Assembly: GCA_902463875.1 (NCBI GenBank)
Contig: CABQHR010000113.1
Location: 1-5,960, forward strand
Direction: 5' to 3'
DNA: 5,960 nt
Source: an uncultured Collinsella sp.
Lineage (GTDB): Bacteria > Actinomycetota > Coriobacteriia > Coriobacteriales > Coriobacteriaceae
Shown here: piece by piece, positions 1,411 through 5,960 of the stretch
How positions within the stretch are numbered: the first letter of the stretch is position 1
Layout: every line of letters starts with the position of its first letter
Made by a program: the position numbers and the translations under genes
Notes under the pieces: generated by a model
What the model saw: the letters and a program-made list of their open reading frames with translations, nothing else
The model's database searches: none
What the model was told of the DNA's origin: nothing

Positions 1411-2811
1411 ATGGATAAGATCAAGCTCGGTTTTGTGCCCACGCGCCGTAGCATCTTTAGCGCGCCGGACGCGATCAAGTATCGCGGCCTTACGGCTGAT
1501 CGCCTGCGCGAGATCGGCGTCGAGATTGTGGATATCGACGACATCAACGACGAGGGCCTGCTGTTCGACGACAGCCATATCGCGCCTATCGTCGAGAAGT
1601 TCCGCGCCGAGGGCGTCGACGGCATCATGCTCTGCCACGCCAACTTTGGTACCGAGTATGTCTGCGCCCGCCTTGCCCGCGAGCTCGGCTTGCCCGTGCT
1701 GCTGTGGGGTCCGCGCGACGAGCGCCCCGAGCCCGACGGCACCCGTCTGCGCGATAGCCAGTGCGGCCTGTTCGCCACCGGCAAGGTCCTGCGTCGCTTC
1801 CAGGTTCCCTTCACCTACATGACCAACTGCCGTCTGACCGATCCCGAGTTCGAGCGCGGTGTCTGGGACTTTTTGGCCGTGTGCAACGTGGTCAAGACTT
1901 TCAAGCACACTCGCATCCTGCAGATGGCCACCCGTCCGTTCGATTTCTGGTCGACCATGTGCAACGAGGGCGAGCTGCTCGAGAAGTTCAACATCCAGCT
2001 TTCGCCCATCCCCATGACCGAGCTTGTCCAGGCCGTGCGCGACGCCCAGGCTGACGAGCAGGCCATGGCAACCATGCTCGCCCACATTGGTGACAGCTTT
2101 GAGATCTGCATCTCCGAAGACAAGGTTCCTGCGGTCGCAGGACTCGCCATTGCCATGAAGCGCCTGGTCGAGAAGTACGGCTGCAACGCCGGCGCCATCC
2201 AGTGCTGGAACGCCCTGCAGGACGAGTTGGGCATTATGCCCTGCGCCGCCAACGCAATCCTCAACGAGATGGGCATCCCCATCGTCTGCGAGACCGACAT
2301 CCATGGCGCTATCACCGCGCTGATGGTCGAGGCCGCCGACCTGGGCCGTCACCGCGGCATGTTCGCCGACTGGACCGTGCGTCATCCCGATAACGAGAAC
2401 GGCGAGCTGCTGCAGCACTGCGGCCCCTGGCCCTGCAGCTGCGCGGCCGTCAAGCCCAAGCTCACCTATCCGCTGGCCTTCGATCACCCCGGCGCGCTGA
2501 CGGCCGAGGCCAAGCACGGCGACCTCACCCTTGCCCGCTTTGACGGCGACAACGGCGAGTACTCGCTGCTGCTGGGCAACGCCCGCGGCATCGACGGCCC
2601 GGCCGGCATGGGCACCTACCTGTGGGTCGAGGTCGACAACCTCAAGCGCCTCGAGGCCAAGATCGTCGAGGGTCCCTACATCCACCACTGCGTCGCCATT
2701 CACGCCAACGTGGTGCCGGTGCTCTACGAGGCGTGCAAGTACATCGGCATTGTCCCCGACCTGTACGACCCCATCGAAGAAGACGTCAAAGCTTACCTGC
2801 GAGGAGAGTAG
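1411..2811 (+). CDS. L-fucose/L-arabinose isomerase family protein (aldose-ketose isomerase)
   Basis: A 466-residue cytoplasmic enzyme of the FucI/AraA fold, expected to interconvert an aldose and its ketose using a divalent metal, often Mn2+. The start is fixed by AGGGGAGGA (1397-1405), six bases before the ATG. Two Rossmann-like domains appear to fill about residues 1-310 and a C-terminal barrel the rest. The recognisable core is QCWNALQDELGI (264-275), then CETDIHGA (293-300). Glu272 and Asp296 are 24 residues apart, the same spacing as the metal ligands Glu337 and Asp361 of E. coli FucI. A His-rich patch (His425, His426, His431) is the likely source of the third ligand. It is shorter than E. 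coli FucI (591 residues) and nearer AraA (about 500), as in the compact FucI-like relatives. It is the first gene of the operon and its last codons carry the ribosome binding site of the next gene. The substrate is unknown; D-arabinose, L-fucose or a rarer sugar are all possible. Confidence 0.88.
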   Translation: MDKIKLGFVPTRRSIFSAPDAIKYRGLTADRLREIGVEIVDIDDINDEGLLFDDSHIAPIVEKFRAEGVDGIMLCHANFGTEYVCARLARELGLPVLLWGPRDERPEPDGTRLRDSQCGLFATGKVLRRFQVPFTYMTNCRLTDPEFERGVWDFLAVCNVVKTFKHTRILQMATRPFDFWSTMCNEGELLEKFNIQLSPIPMTELVQAVRDAQADEQAMATMLAHIGDSFEICISEDKVPAVAGLAIAMKRLVEKYGCNAGAIQCWNALQDELGIMPCAANAILNEMGIPIVCETDIHGAITALMVEAADLGRHRGMFADWTVRHPDNENGELLQHCGPWPCSCAAVKPKLTYPLAFDHPGALTAEAKHGDLTLARFDGDNGEYSLLLGNARGIDGPAGMGTYLWVEVDNLKRLEAKIVEGPYIHHCVAIHANVVPVLYEACKYIGIVPDLYDPIEEDVKAYLRGE

Positions 2812-2813
2812 AA

Positions 2814-3650
2814 ATGGCAACTATCGAAGAGCTTGAGTCCCTGCGTTGGGACCTTCGACGCGATTGCGTCGATATCATCATGGCTGGCGCTGGCGGGCAC
2901 ATCGGCGGCGACATGTCGGTCATCGATGCGCTGATGACCCTCTATGCCAACCACCTCAACATTTCTCCCGAGACCGTCGACGATCCCAACCGCGATCGCT
3001 TCGTACTCTCCAAGGGCCACGCCATGGAGGCCTACTACGCGGTGCTCTGCCACGAGGGCTATCTGGACCTCGACGACGTCAAGGCCCGCTTCTCTAAGTT
3101 CGGCAGCCCCTACATCGGCCACCCCAACAACAAGCTCAAGGGCATCGAGATGAACTCGGGCTCGCTGGGTCATGGCCTGCCCGTGGCCGTCGGGATGGCG
3201 CTTGCCGGCAAGATGGATGGCCGCGACTACCGCGTCTACACCATCATGGGCGACGGCGAGCTTGCCGAGGGCTCGGTCTGGGAGGGCGCCATGAGCGGCG
3301 GCAACTACCAGCTCGATAACCTGTGCGCGCTCGTGGACCGCAACCGCCTGCAGATCAGCGGCAGCACCGAGGACGTCATGAAGCAGGATTCGCAGGAGGA
3401 GCGCTGGGCCGCCTTCGGTTGGAACGTGCTGTCCATTCCGGGCAACGACGTCCAGGCCATCGACGCCGCGCTGACGCTGGCCGCCGAGACCAAGGGTAAG
3501 CCCACGGTCATCATCCTCAACACAGTGAAGGGCTACGGCTCGCCGGTTATGGAGGACAAGGCCGCCTGGCATCATCACCTGCCCAACGATGAGGAATATG
3601 CCCAGATCATCGCCGATTTCGCTGCCCATAAGGAGGCCATCAATGGCTAA
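2814..3650 (+). CDS. Split transketolase, N-terminal (thiamine-diphosphate-binding) subunit
   Basis: A 278-residue protein matching the first third of a full-length transketolase (about 650 residues), as in known two-gene transketolases. It should bind the diphosphate of ThDP and Mg2+ and, with the next gene product, move a two-carbon ketol unit between sugar phosphates. Visible motifs: GHIGGDMS (28-35), SKGHAMEAYYA (66-76) with His69, GSLGHGLPVAVGMA (116-129), and the ThDP-Mg signature starting GDGELAEGSVWEGAM at 146 and ending with Asp175 and Asn177 in LVDRNRLQISG. Near the end WHHHLPNDEEY (252-262) replaces the WHG...P of housekeeping enzymes. The start lies 2 bp after the isomerase stop; its GAGGAG ribosome binding site (2801-2806) is inside the isomerase gene, so the two are probably translated together. 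A dedicated sugar-specific role is more likely than a housekeeping one, given its operon. Family is firm; the donor ketose is unknown. Confidence 0.92.
   Translation: MATIEELESLRWDLRRDCVDIIMAGAGGHIGGDMSVIDALMTLYANHLNISPETVDDPNRDRFVLSKGHAMEAYYAVLCHEGYLDLDDVKARFSKFGSPYIGHPNNKLKGIEMNSGSLGHGLPVAVGMALAGKMDGRDYRVYTIMGDGELAEGSVWEGAMSGGNYQLDNLCALVDRNRLQISGSTEDVMKQDSQEERWAAFGWNVLSIPGNDVQAIDAALTLAAETKGKPTVIILNTVKGYGSPVMEDKAAWHHHLPNDEEYAQIIADFAAHKEAING
3630..3636 (+). promoter_or_regulatory. Strong internal ribosome binding site for the C-terminal transketolase subunit
   Basis: AAGGAGG lies within the last codons of the N-subunit gene, six bases before the ATG at 3643. It selects this start over the in-frame upstream ATG at 3589, which would add 18 residues that only read through the neighbouring gene in another frame. 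The 8-base overlap suggests coupled, balanced synthesis of the two subunits. Confidence 0.8.
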
Positions 3651-4584
3651 CAAGATCGCCAACCGCAAGGCTATCTGCGACACGCTGCTCGAGGCCGCCG
3701 CAACCGATAAAGACATAGTCGTCCTGTGCTCCGACTCCCGCGGCTCCGCATCGCTCACGCCGTTCTTCGATCAGTATCCCCAGCAGTCCATTGAGGTCGG
3801 CATCGCCGAGCAGGACCTGGTGAGCATCGCCGCCGGTATGGCCTCGTGCGGCAAGAAGGCCTGGGCCGCCTCGCCGGCGTCCTTTGTGACCACGCGCTCG
3901 TATGAGCAGTGCAAGGTCGACGTTTCGTACTCCAACACCAACGTCAAGCTCATCGGCATCTCGGGCGGCGTGTCCTACGGCGCCTTAGGCATGAGCCATC
4001 ACTCCGCGCAGGATATCGCCGCCATGAGCGCGATTCCCAACATGCGCGTGTATCTGCCGAGCGATCGCTTCCAGACCGCCGAGCTCGTGCGTGCCCTGGT
4101 CGCCGACAACAAGCCGGCCTACATCCGCGTGGGCCGCAACCCGGTGGAGGACGTGTACACTGAGGACGAGTGCCCGTTCCAGATGGATCGCGCCACCTGG
4201 GTGCGCCGCGGCACCGATGTGACGATCGTCGCTACCGGTGAGATGGTCCGCCACGCCGTGGACGCCGCCGATCTGCTGGCCGAGCAGGGCATCTCGGCAA
4301 CGGTGCTCGATATGTACTGCGTCAAGCCGCTCGACGCCGAGGCCGTGATCGAGGCCGCCGGTGCCACGCGCGCCGTCGTGACCGTCGAGGAGCACAGTCC
4401 CTTCGGTGGCCTGGGTTCCATGGTCGCGCAGGTTGTGGGTGAGCACTGCCCGCGTCCGGTCAAGTGCCTGAGTCTACCCGATGCGCCGGTCATCACCGGT
4501 ACGAGCCCCGAGGTCTTTGCGCACTACGGCCTGACGGGCGAGGGGATCGCCAAGACGGTCGTCGAGTTCTTTGGCAAACAGTAG
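3643..4584 (+). CDS. Split transketolase, C-terminal (pyrimidine-binding) subunit
   Basis: A 313-residue partner of the preceding subunit, overlapping it by 8 bp. Together they would make one complete transketolase. The pyrimidine domain spans about residues 3-170: VGIAEQDL (52-59) carries Glu56, the glutamate that activates ThDP by contacting its aminopyrimidine ring. Phe81...Arg85-Ser-Tyr87-Glu-Gln follows, matching the family's F..F..R.YEQ segment. SYGALGMSHHSAQDIA (111-126) holds the active-site His pair. The C-terminal transketolase domain covers about 185-300. Arg165 in the VGRNP segment lies where classical transketolases hold an arginine contacting the substrate phosphate, and Arg8 may match another, so a phosphorylated acceptor is plausible. 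This part is inference from motif position. The same architecture occurs in the E1 beta subunit of 2-oxo acid dehydrogenases and in DXP synthase, but the GHxGG and SKGH motifs of the partner subunit point to transketolase. Confidence 0.92.
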   Translation: MANKIANRKAICDTLLEAAATDKDIVVLCSDSRGSASLTPFFDQYPQQSIEVGIAEQDLVSIAAGMASCGKKAWAASPASFVTTRSYEQCKVDVSYSNTNVKLIGISGGVSYGALGMSHHSAQDIAAMSAIPNMRVYLPSDRFQTAELVRALVADNKPAYIRVGRNPVEDVYTEDECPFQMDRATWVRRGTDVTIVATGEMVRHAVDAADLLAEQGISATVLDMYCVKPLDAEAVIEAAGATRAVVTVEEHSPFGGLGSMVAQVVGEHCPRPVKCLSLPDAPVITGTSPEVFAHYGLTGEGIAKTVVEFFGKQ

Positions 4585-4631
4585 AAACAGACGCTGCGCG
4601 GCCGCCAAGCACCGCACCTTGCCGTTCAAAC

Positions 4632-4669
4632 CGTCGCCTGTGTACACAAAGTACGCGGCGCTCCTTTTT
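4632..4669 (+). terminator. Possible weak terminator after the transketolase genes
   Basis: CGTCGC (4632-4637) pairs with GCGGCG (4655-4660), with one G-T pair. Inside it GTAC (4642-4645) pairs with GTAC (4651-4654) around an ACAAA loop, leaving a four-base bulge on the left side. CTCC and then five T (4665-4669) follow. The stem is imperfect and the T run is not adjacent, so partial termination or no termination are both possible. If real, it would lower kinase expression relative to the upstream genes. Confidence 0.3.
4639..4648. repeat. Perfect 10 bp palindrome
   Basis: TGTGTACACA reads the same on both strands. It sits 55 bp after the transketolase stop codon and inside the possible terminator hairpin. 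A protein-binding site is conceivable, but a 10 bp palindrome can also arise by chance. Confidence 0.35.
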
Positions 4670-4709
4670 CACGGCAATCTGCGGCACTTGACGGCCGCTC
4701 GCTCCTTGT

Positions 4710-4738
4710 CCGTCGGGTTTTAGTTTTTGAATCGACGG
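4710..4738. repeat. Inverted repeat flanking a T-rich stretch before the kinase
   Basis: CCGTCG (4710-4715) and CGACGG (4733-4738) are perfect inverted copies separated by 17 mostly T-rich bases. They end eight bases before the AGGAG ribosome binding site (4746-4750) of the kinase. The repeat could be an operator, a 5'-UTR hairpin affecting translation, or chance. A TTGACG box at 4688-4693 could be a -35 for a local promoter, but no matching -10 was found. Confidence 0.4.
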
Positions 4739-4755
4739 GGGAGACAGGAGAGTAC

Positions 4756-5960
4756 ATGAGCAAATACATCATCGGAATCGATCAATCCACGCAGGGCACC
4801 AAGGCGCTGCTGGTGGACGAGGGTGGCCATCTGATCCATCGCGCCGATCGCCCGCATCGCCAGATTGTGAACGAGGCCGGCTGGGTGAGCCATGATCCAG
4901 CCGAGATCGCCGCCAACGTGCTGGCCGTGGCGCGCGCCGTGGTGGAGGAGACCGGGGTCGATCCGGCCGACGTCGCCGGCATCGGCATCTCCAACCAGCG
5001 CGAGACCACTGTTGCCTGGAGCCGCACGACGGGTGAGCCGCTGTGCGATGCCGTGGTGTGGCAGTGCGCCCGCGCCCGCGAGCTGTGCGATGAGCTTGCT
5101 GCGCGCGAAGGCGTGGCCGAGCTGGTGCGTGACACGACGGGTCTGGTGCTCTCGCCCTACTACCCGGCGGGCAAGATGGCCTGGATCCTCGCGAACGTTC
5201 CCGCGGCTGCCGAGGCCGCGGCGGCAGGCGAGCTGTGCCTGGGCACCATCGATGCCTGGGTGGTCTGGACGCTCACGGGCGGCGCGGAGTTCCGCTGCGA
5301 CTGGTCTAACGCCAGCCGCACGCAGCTCTTCGACCTGCGCCGTGGCTGCTGGAGCGAGCCAGTGTGCGAGGCCTTTGGCGTCGATGCAGCCTGCCTGCCG
5401 CGGGTGACCGATTCCGATGGTCTGTTCGGCATGACGGACCTGGGCGGCTTTTTGCCGGCACCCGTGCCCATTCACGGCGTGCTCGGCGACAGCCACGCCG
5501 CCTTGTTTGCCCAGGGCTGCCATAGCCGCGGCATGGCCAAGGCGACCTATGGCACCGGCAGCTCGGTCATGATGAACGTCGGCGACGAGTTTGTCGCCAG
5601 CTCGCACGGGCTTTCGAGCTCGCTTGCGTGGCGTATGGACGGTGTGACCGAGTATGTGCTCGAGGGCAACGTGAGCTACGCCGGCGCCGTCAAGACGTGG
5701 CTGCGCGACGACCTGGAGCTCATCAACAATCCTGAGGAAGTCACCGACCTGTGCTACGCCGCCAATCCGGCGAGCCGCGTCTACTTTGTGCCGGCGTTCA
5801 CTGGCCTGGGCGCGCCGCACTGGGCGAGCGATGCCGAGGGCTGCGTCTTTGGCATGACGCGCACCACGGGCCGTGCGGAGTTCGTAAAGGCCGCCGACGA
5901 GTCGATCGCCTATCAGATCTTCGACGTGATCGATGCGATGGTCGAGGATTCGGGCGCGGC
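4756..5960 (+). CDS. FGGY-family carbohydrate kinase, glycerol-kinase-like (3' end outside window)
   Basis: An open frame of 401 codons runs to the window edge, about four fifths of a typical 500-residue FGGY kinase. AGGAG five bases before the ATG supports the start. It should transfer phosphate from ATP to a sugar or polyol. The closest resemblance is glycerol kinase: GIDQSTQGTKALL (7-19) at the phosphate loop, NQRETT (80-85), VVWQC with Trp102, Tyr135, the Asp245 catalytic base in GDSHAALF, YGTGSS (265-270), and FVPAFTGLGAPHW in the second domain. The glycerol-contacting positions Arg, Glu, Trp, Tyr and Asp245 are kept, but Gln246 of E. coli GlpK is Ser here and Phe270 is also Ser. The GlpK fructose-1,6-bisphosphate loop (Gly234, Arg236) reads Pro234 and Pro236. 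A non-glycerol substrate, perhaps the ketose made by the isomerase, is therefore likely. It lacks the MH substrate motif of xylulokinase. The same-strand gap of 171 bp suggests either an operon member or a separately promoted gene. Confidence 0.88.
   Translation, partial: MSKYIIGIDQSTQGTKALLVDEGGHLIHRADRPHRQIVNEAGWVSHDPAEIAANVLAVARAVVEETGVDPADVAGIGISNQRETTVAWSRTTGEPLCDAVVWQCARARELCDELAAREGVAELVRDTTGLVLSPYYPAGKMAWILANVPAAAEAAAAGELCLGTIDAWVVWTLTGGAEFRCDWSNASRTQLFDLRRGCWSEPVCEAFGVDAACLPRVTDSDGLFGMTDLGGFLPAPVPIHGVLGDSHAALFAQGCHSRGMAKATYGTGSSVMMNVGDEFVASSHGLSSSLAWRMDGVTEYVLEGNVSYAGAVKTWLRDDLELINNPEEVTDLCYAANPASRVYFVPAFTGLGAPHWASDAEGCVFGMTRTTGRAEFVKAADESIAYQIFDVIDAMVEDSGA

Follow-up and report, generated by a model that had tools for sequence, protein, structure and literature searches.

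The DNA analysed in this work (the window) is a stretch of 5960 bases from contig CABQHR010000113.1 of an uncultured Collinsella sp. All of its genes are on the + strand, and they encode a LacI-family regulator, an isomerase, the N-terminal (TK-N) and C-terminal (TK-C) subunits of a split transketolase (TK), and an FGGY kinase. An earlier note on this DNA had correctly reported the FucI-like isomerase, the split transketolase, and the GlpK-like kinase together with their coordinates, and the LacI regulator lies just outside the range covered by that note. Comparison with related loci suggests that the gene block is very probably a D-apiose catabolic operon that consists of an isomerase, a kinase, and an AptAB-like transketolase. 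The features of the window are as follows.

141 to 1151, + strand: LacI-family regulator that probably represses the operon (PF00356 and PF13377 over the cut-off)
1218 to 1239, + strand: terminator-like hairpin past the regulator gene (consensus scan, 9 pairs followed by a T run)
1411 to 2811, + strand: FucI/AraA-fold aldose-ketose isomerase, predicted D-apiose isomerase (466 aa)
2814 to 3650, + strand: split transketolase N-terminal (thiamine diphosphate (ThDP)-binding) subunit, AptA-like (278 aa; PF00456 178.9 bits)
3643 to 4584, + strand: split transketolase C-terminal subunit, AptB-like (313 aa; PF02779 113.2 bits, PF02780 119.6 bits)
Residues 108-126 of the C-terminal subunit, + strand: TK-C loop GGVSYGALGMSHHSAQDIA (from the loop table)
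4756 to 5960, + strand: GlpK-like FGGY kinase, predicted apulose kinase (PF00370/PF02782; cut by the window end, 401 codons)

The TK-N and TK-C genes overlap by 8 bases, and the kinase gene is preceded by a gap of 171 bases. The consensus scan identified five terminator-like sites in the window while 2.9 are expected from shuffles. No palindromic LacI operator common to the upstream regions of the regulator, isomerase, and kinase genes was seen. Among the fetched loci, the best nucleotide relatives of the window are loci of the C. aerofaciens group (approximately 93-95% identity over most of their length), and the nucleotide matches show that the window DNA is Collinsella.

The related loci are the best 80 of 570 stretches encoding the isomerase family that were selected by a pattern scan with one genome per species. 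These 80 loci were probed with the window proteins by tblastn. Their hosts are mostly Collinsella and its kin, Lachnospiraceae, and Oscillospiraceae. In this search for conserved neighbourhoods of the four families, which the earlier note had proposed, the isomerase, TK-N, and TK-C are found together in 77 of the 80 loci, and the kinase is also present in 72 of them. The stretches that have no kinase match are seven, of which five are shorter than 8 kb. The association of the four families is not due to chance. A LacI-like match is also found within 10 kb of the isomerase in 73/80 loci and within 2.5 kb upstream of it in 67/80 loci. The block of Listeria exhibits the order LacI (divergent), isomerase, TK-A, TK-B, kinase, beta-glucoside-type phosphotransferase system (PTS) EII, and apiosidase. 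The only names found in two annotated records are 'L-fucose/L-arabinose isomerase family protein' and 'glycerol kinase'. No description of the block was found among the papers listed by the literature search, which did not extend to the text of Carter et al. 2018.

D-apiose is the branched sugar of the pectin rhamnogalacturonan II (RG-II) and of the flavonoids of celery and parsley. The Pfam Apiosidase family (PF13204) was searched in 46 whole genomes, drawn from a selection of 47 of the 80 loci (chiefly the longer stretches), and in two additional plasmid records. Matches over the cut-off were identified in 36 of these 48. The proximity counts are for the 46 genomes, without the plasmid records and without a match under the cut-off in G037. 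The isomerase has a match within 35 kb in 21/46 genomes where 1.4 are expected by random placement, and a match of at least 150 bits lies within the same distance in 14/46 genomes where 0.6 are expected. The P values of this proximity treat related genomes as independent and are therefore too small, but the contrast itself is large. In the group of Collinsella and its close kin, to which one Coriobacteriia and one 'Candidatus Coprousia' assembly were assigned, nine of ten genomes have a match within 35 kb. The apiosidase in the Listeria block scores 313 bits, and in Monoglobus the gene after the kinase is apiosidase-like (60 bits, cut-off 26.5). Apiosidase-like genes, defined by at least 35% identity to the Listeria, C. 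stercoris, or Monoglobus query, are found in 22/80 loci (one of them, in L070, is a 66-aa end piece).

The Collinsella apiosidase belongs to a second conserved cluster that is located 5-31 kb from the block and consists of apiosidase, PTS EIIBC, esterase-like, and Sde182-type nucleoside-hydrolase-like genes. This cluster is located at L168:6692-12932, L169:3088-9640, L172:4292-10667, and L173:4034-10655, with the apiosidase (PF13204) and PTS EIIBC genes, a divergent esterase-like gene, and the Sde182-type gene (PF07632, 114-130 bits). A PF07632 match is present in 8/10 Collinsella-type genomes and is located 3.4-3.8 kb from a strong apiosidase in all eight. Nucleoside-hydrolase-like genes are also found near the block at L016:14746-15672 and L067:19597-20526, where the IU_nuc_hydro/Sde182 type was confirmed by scan, and in L024, L026, L035, L041, L044, L046, and L054. 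No apiosidase match was obtained in the genomes of L026 and L044, where a protein of the nucleoside-hydrolase fold could therefore supply the sugar. In the C. aerofaciens relatives (L001, L002, L003, and L014; families checked in L002), the kinase gene is followed by luxS (L002:14986-15474) and then by a DUF4867 gene, with luxS directly between the two.

A different set of genes accompanies the block in 14/80 loci, namely a substrate-binding protein (SBP) gene and a DUF2291 gene with RbsA/RbsC-like ATP-binding cassette (ABC) transporter genes. None of these 14 loci is among the 22 that have an apiosidase-like gene within the stretches examined, so the apiosidase and the ABC set appear as if they were alternative suppliers of the same sugar. 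Ten genomes with the ABC set were searched for PF13204. No match was found in eight (L019, L022, L023, L027, L028, L029, L034, and L077), the match in L056 is under the cut-off, and the two matches in L057 are 3.25 Mb away and on a different contig, respectively. The SBP of the Lachnospiraceae locus L019 best matches PDB 5ibq and 4ry0 (351.5 and 349.7 bits), followed by a ribose-binding protein (186.2 bits). 5ibq and 4ry0 are also the best matches of the SBP encoded in the E. coli apiose cluster (270.1 and 269.3 bits versus 162.6 for the next). The ligand in 5ibq is presumably alpha-D-apiose. The 5ibq/4ry0 protein is an SBP of R. etli that is encoded in one gene run with DUF2291 and ABC genes, and oiaX (annotated 3-oxo-isoapionate-4-phosphate decarboxylase) is located four genes away. 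The paper on 5IBQ names the protein a probable ribose ABC transporter SBP. The fold matches of a single-sequence model of the L019 SBP were set aside because the model is poor (pLDDT 49.6).

The E. coli SE15 cluster is named in PMC13001218, where carriers of the cluster grew on D-apiose and where degradation of apiose by gut Bacteroides and Clostridia is stated with a citation of Carter et al. 2018. This cluster consists of two short-chain dehydrogenase/reductase (SDR) genes, ABC permease, ABC ATPase, DUF2291, SBP, AplK, 'sugar-binding transcriptional regulator', AptA, and AptB. The clusters of Klebsiella, of Rahnella, and of a Sodalis plasmid have the SE15-type transporter and regulator, AptA-/AptB-like genes, and an FGGY kinase. 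The SDR pair is absent from inside these three clusters, and Rahnella has single SDR genes nearby.

The kinship of the transketolase to AptAB was assessed with trees of both subunits, in which the AptAB rows come from the Enterobacterales apiose-type clusters. One side of the TK-C tree has 23 rows, which are the window, 15 related loci (L128 was left out), Listeria, Monoglobus, the second copy found in Lachnospiraceae, and four AptB. The other side has 15 other split transketolases from five of the same Lachnospiraceae-type genomes and one C. aerofaciens, with two duplicate rows. The branch between the two sides has support of 100/99, and 99/98 after the loop and phosphate-site columns had been removed. 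The TK-N tree likewise separates 23 rows that include AptA from 14 other split transketolases (100/98). The TK-C subunits of the block form a sister clade to AptB (93/88) and are not placed within it. TK-N and TK-C are 41% and 39% identical to AptAB compared with 43% and 37% to the ordinary split transketolase of C. aerofaciens. The AptAB kinship is carried by the trees and the loop, and plain identity is no closer to AptAB than to an ordinary transketolase.

The loop with the motif GEDG.(T/S)HQ has Leu in place of Asp and His in place of Gln in all 23 rows on the AptAB side, whereas both Asp and Gln are kept in 14 of the 15 other split transketolase rows (two of the 15 are the duplicates). 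We take the loop Asp to be D469 of E. coli on the basis of the GEDGPTH motif. This Asp probably reads a hydroxyl-bearing C4, which apulose 4-phosphate would not have, so the loss of the residue fits apulose 4-phosphate as the substrate. D469 lines the substrate site of transketolase and its replacement alters acceptor choice, according to PMC5073344. The window keeps R8, S35, and R165 at the phosphate-site positions (R356/S383/R525 in PMC11659671) and has S107 in place of His. Many relatives have Lys in place of R8.

The window isomerase scores 21.9 bits against Pfam Fucose_iso_C (threshold 29.3) and 91.6 bits against the NCBIfam SftI model (cut-off 700), and neither FucI nor AraA NCBIfam models are among its matches. 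The nearest folds are L-arabinose and L-fucose/D-arabinose isomerases, where structural alignments with FucI/AraA show 11-16% identity, and the candidate metal ligands may be equivalent to those of FucI/AraA. The isomerase is 68% identical to that of the Listeria block. An isomerase tree that contains one artefact row (L153, translated from an antisense frame) was set aside. The earlier note had taken a FucI-like isomerase as an argument against apiose. However, in the Klebsiella, Rahnella, and Sodalis apiose-type clusters, a FucI-like isomerase is located between AptAB and the FGGY kinase, and the objection therefore falls. Isomerase paralogues were also observed elsewhere. Three Lachnospiraceae genomes of the ABC type have a second one that is 55-57% identical to that of the window (G003:C1:3851582-3852961, G005:C13:57054-58433, and G023:C2:268584-269966). 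The Faecalicatena orotica genome has a 46%-identical paralogue (L170:6924-15115) whose neighbours, judged by the start of their sequences, are an apparent glycyl-radical enzyme with its activase, an iron alcohol dehydrogenase, and a pfkB-type kinase. A DUF4867 gene is also present, and no transketolase match was found in L170:6924-15115.

The best family of the window kinase is GlpK, with 462.9 bits (cut-off 498) and 462.8 bits (cut-off 590.35) for a protein that the window end truncates. Stretches of true GlpK that have the same length and come from three genomes score 614-701 and 584-625 bits on the same models, and the full-length L019 kinase scores 594.9 (cut-off 498) and 580 (cut-off 590.35). 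The best family of E. coli AplK is also GlpK, under both cut-offs (495.3 versus 590.35 and 490.4 versus 498), and being GlpK-like is therefore no argument against an apulose kinase. The window kinase falls into one superclade with AplK and GlpK (100/100). Within it, seven GlpK rows from six genomes form a separate clade (98/97) that excludes the window kinase. Four of these seven were scanned; GlpK is the best family of all four and the full-length one is over both cut-offs. The block kinases without that of Listeria form a clade (100/99), and so do the AplK rows (100/100). A GlpK annotation in such a gene setting is probably wrong.

The D-apiose assignment is drawn from the apiosidase or apiose-type transporter near the blocks of relatives, the AptAB kinship, the loop, the GlpK-like AplK, and the FucI-like isomerases in AptAB clusters. 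It rests on gene neighbours as much as on enzyme trees. The substrates, reactions, co-transcription, regulator role, and uptake route of the block are all predicted from sequence comparison. The isomerase would convert D-apiose to D-apulose and the kinase would convert D-apulose to D-apulose 4-phosphate. AptAB converts apulose 4-phosphate and glyceraldehyde 3-phosphate to xylulose 5-phosphate and dihydroxyacetone phosphate (DHAP). The AptAB-like transketolase would thus transfer the two-carbon ketol unit of apulose 4-phosphate to glyceraldehyde 3-phosphate and yield the same two products. Collinsella probably takes up apiosides through a beta-glucoside-type PTS and cuts them with the apiosidase whose gene is 5-31 kb from the block. 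In a set of Lachnospiraceae and other bacteria, the ABC transporter of the apiose type probably brings in the free sugar. As long as the sugar is absent, the operon is probably kept off by the LacI protein.

This predicted route agrees with the logic given in the earlier note (aldose to ketose to ketose phosphate, which a dedicated split transketolase then cleaves). The guess of an uncommon pentose or branched sugar, with D-apiose as a precedent, is also borne out in that the comparison indicates D-apiose. D-apiose degradation I (ApsI, AplK, and AptAB; MetaCyc PWY-8089) has reportedly been described by Carter et al. 2018. The block is similar to it in the order of reactions (isomerase, FGGY kinase, and dedicated split transketolase), in the placement of the transketolase subunits on the AptAB side, in the GlpK-like kinase, and in the DUF2291/ABC transporter in a set of relatives. 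However, the block differs in its divergent isomerase, in a transketolase sister clade with a different phosphate site, and in the apiosidase and PTS that accompany it in Collinsella and Listeria. It also has a LacI regulator where the Enterobacterales apiose clusters have a 'sugar-binding transcriptional regulator'. The route likely resembles one already described in other bacteria, as a divergent and under-annotated Gram-positive version. The suggestion that it is undescribed therefore finds little backing, because the gene neighbours, the AptAB kinship, and the FucI-like isomerases in apiose-type clusters point to D-apiose. No enzyme falls fully inside a characterised clade. The transketolase comes close, since a strong branch places it with AptAB, although it forms a sister clade there; the kinase belongs to the GlpK/AplK superclade and is not part of the GlpK clade, but it joins AplK weakly; and the isomerase is distant from that of Klebsiella. 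If the D-apiose assignment is true, a misleadingly named gene block becomes a testable trait of plant-fibre and flavonoid use in common gut bacteria.

Several findings weigh against the D-apiose assignment. The 6-kb window itself has no apiosidase and no transporter. PF13204 is absent within 35 kb of the isomerase in 25/46 genomes, has no match anywhere in 11/46 (one of them Collinsella-type), and has only a sub-cut-off match in one more. Among the Lachnospiraceae, many matches score low (39-79 bits) or are located on a different contig. The isomerase is only approximately 25% identical to that of the Klebsiella-type cluster. AptB has A, T, and G at the phosphate-site positions where the window has R8, S35, and R165. 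The join of AplK, the block kinases, and the Listeria kinase versus GlpK is weak (81/51). DUF4867 is encoded just downstream of the block in the C. aerofaciens relatives. The title of PDB 4ry0 is a ribose transporter. RbsD, which is found in 12/14 ABC-type loci (12/80 overall) and over the cut-off in L019 (155 versus 93 bits), and an RbsK-like kinase under the cut-off in the L019 locus would fit ribose too.

A bolder form of the proposal is a separate Gram-positive invention. The FucI/AraA-fold apiose isomerase would then be unrelated by descent to the published one, and apiosides imported by the Collinsella PTS would be opened in the cell by a cytoplasmic apiosidase and an apiofuranoside-cutting enzyme of the nucleoside-hydrolase fold. 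We regard this as unlikely. To our knowledge, apiofuranosides are not known as substrates of the nucleoside-hydrolase fold.

Among the rivals of the D-apiose operon, the one that survives best is an ordinary pentose route, which is itself improbable. The isomerase would produce D-ribulose from D-ribose or D-arabinose, the kinase would produce ribulose 5-phosphate, and the transketolase would be an extra pentose-phosphate enzyme. The RbsD and RbsK-like kinase in L019, the RbsD in 12/80 loci, the nearest folds of the isomerase (L-arabinose and L-fucose/D-arabinose isomerases), and the ribose title of 4ry0 are consistent with this route. However, it does not account for the enrichment of apiosidase near the isomerase, the grouping of the transketolase subunits with AptAB and not with other split transketolases, or the lost loop Asp. 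C. aerofaciens and C. stercoris also have a separate split transketolase of the ordinary type.

The substrate of the transketolase module could instead be a different ketose phosphate, branched or deoxy (e.g., one derived from a polyol), with the apiosidases being neighbours for another reason; we consider this slightly less probable still. It is favoured by a second TK-A/TK-B/kinase copy in two Lachnospiraceae genomes, whose kinase is 82-84% identical to that of L019 and which has, in place of the isomerase, a zinc alcohol dehydrogenase and a different ABC transporter beside it. The AptAB kinship and the two alternative suppliers of apiose speak against it, and the polyol could be apiitol, which would yield the same ketose.

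A route like the sulfo-TK pathway (SqvD, SqwGH, and SqwI) for sulfoquinovose or a related sulfosugar is very improbable and was dropped. The block shares with it a FucI-family isomerase and a split transketolase, as in SqvD with SqwGH (PMC11659671 and PMC9594981), as well as the nearby DUF4867 of C. aerofaciens relatives. DUF4867 (SqvB) is known from sulfoquinovose clusters and has been proposed to open sugar rings for FucI-type isomerases (PMC9594981). Among the ten Collinsella-type genomes, its distance from the isomerase is 4.2 kb in three and 9.3 kb in one; one more genome has it on a different contig, and five lack it. In Lachnospiraceae, it is also found within approximately 0.6 kb of other FucI-like isomerases (e.g., G002:C80, G003, G005:C4, and G006:C26), and it is thus not restricted to sulfoquinovose. 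In 12/80 loci, its ring-opening counterpart could be RbsD. Unlike the sulfo-TK pathway, the block has a kinase in 72/80 loci, and its SftI score is far under the cut-off. Its transketolase does not match the SqwH motif RAFDR: at four positions placed by residue offset from the numbering in PMC11659671, the window has R8, S35, S107, and R165, with Ser and Ser where the motif has Ala and Asp.

That the kinase is a plain glycerol kinase and an unrelated neighbour is hardly credible and was also dropped: its best family is GlpK and the 171-base gap would permit separate transcription, but it is conserved with the block, is outside the clade that holds the separate GlpK of each of the six genomes examined, and scores lower on the GlpK model than window-length stretches of three such kinases (463 versus 614-701 bits).

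The second TK-A/TK-B/kinase copy is located at L166:2025-10133 and L167:6547-14789, where the same ketose may come from a polyol. Divergent from it (L166:11549-16714 and L167:16180-19901) are genes for an apparent RpiR-type regulator, a different split transketolase, and an FGGY-like kinase, with a PF04199 cyclase-family gene in L166. This gene set is perhaps another sugar-acid or lactone route.

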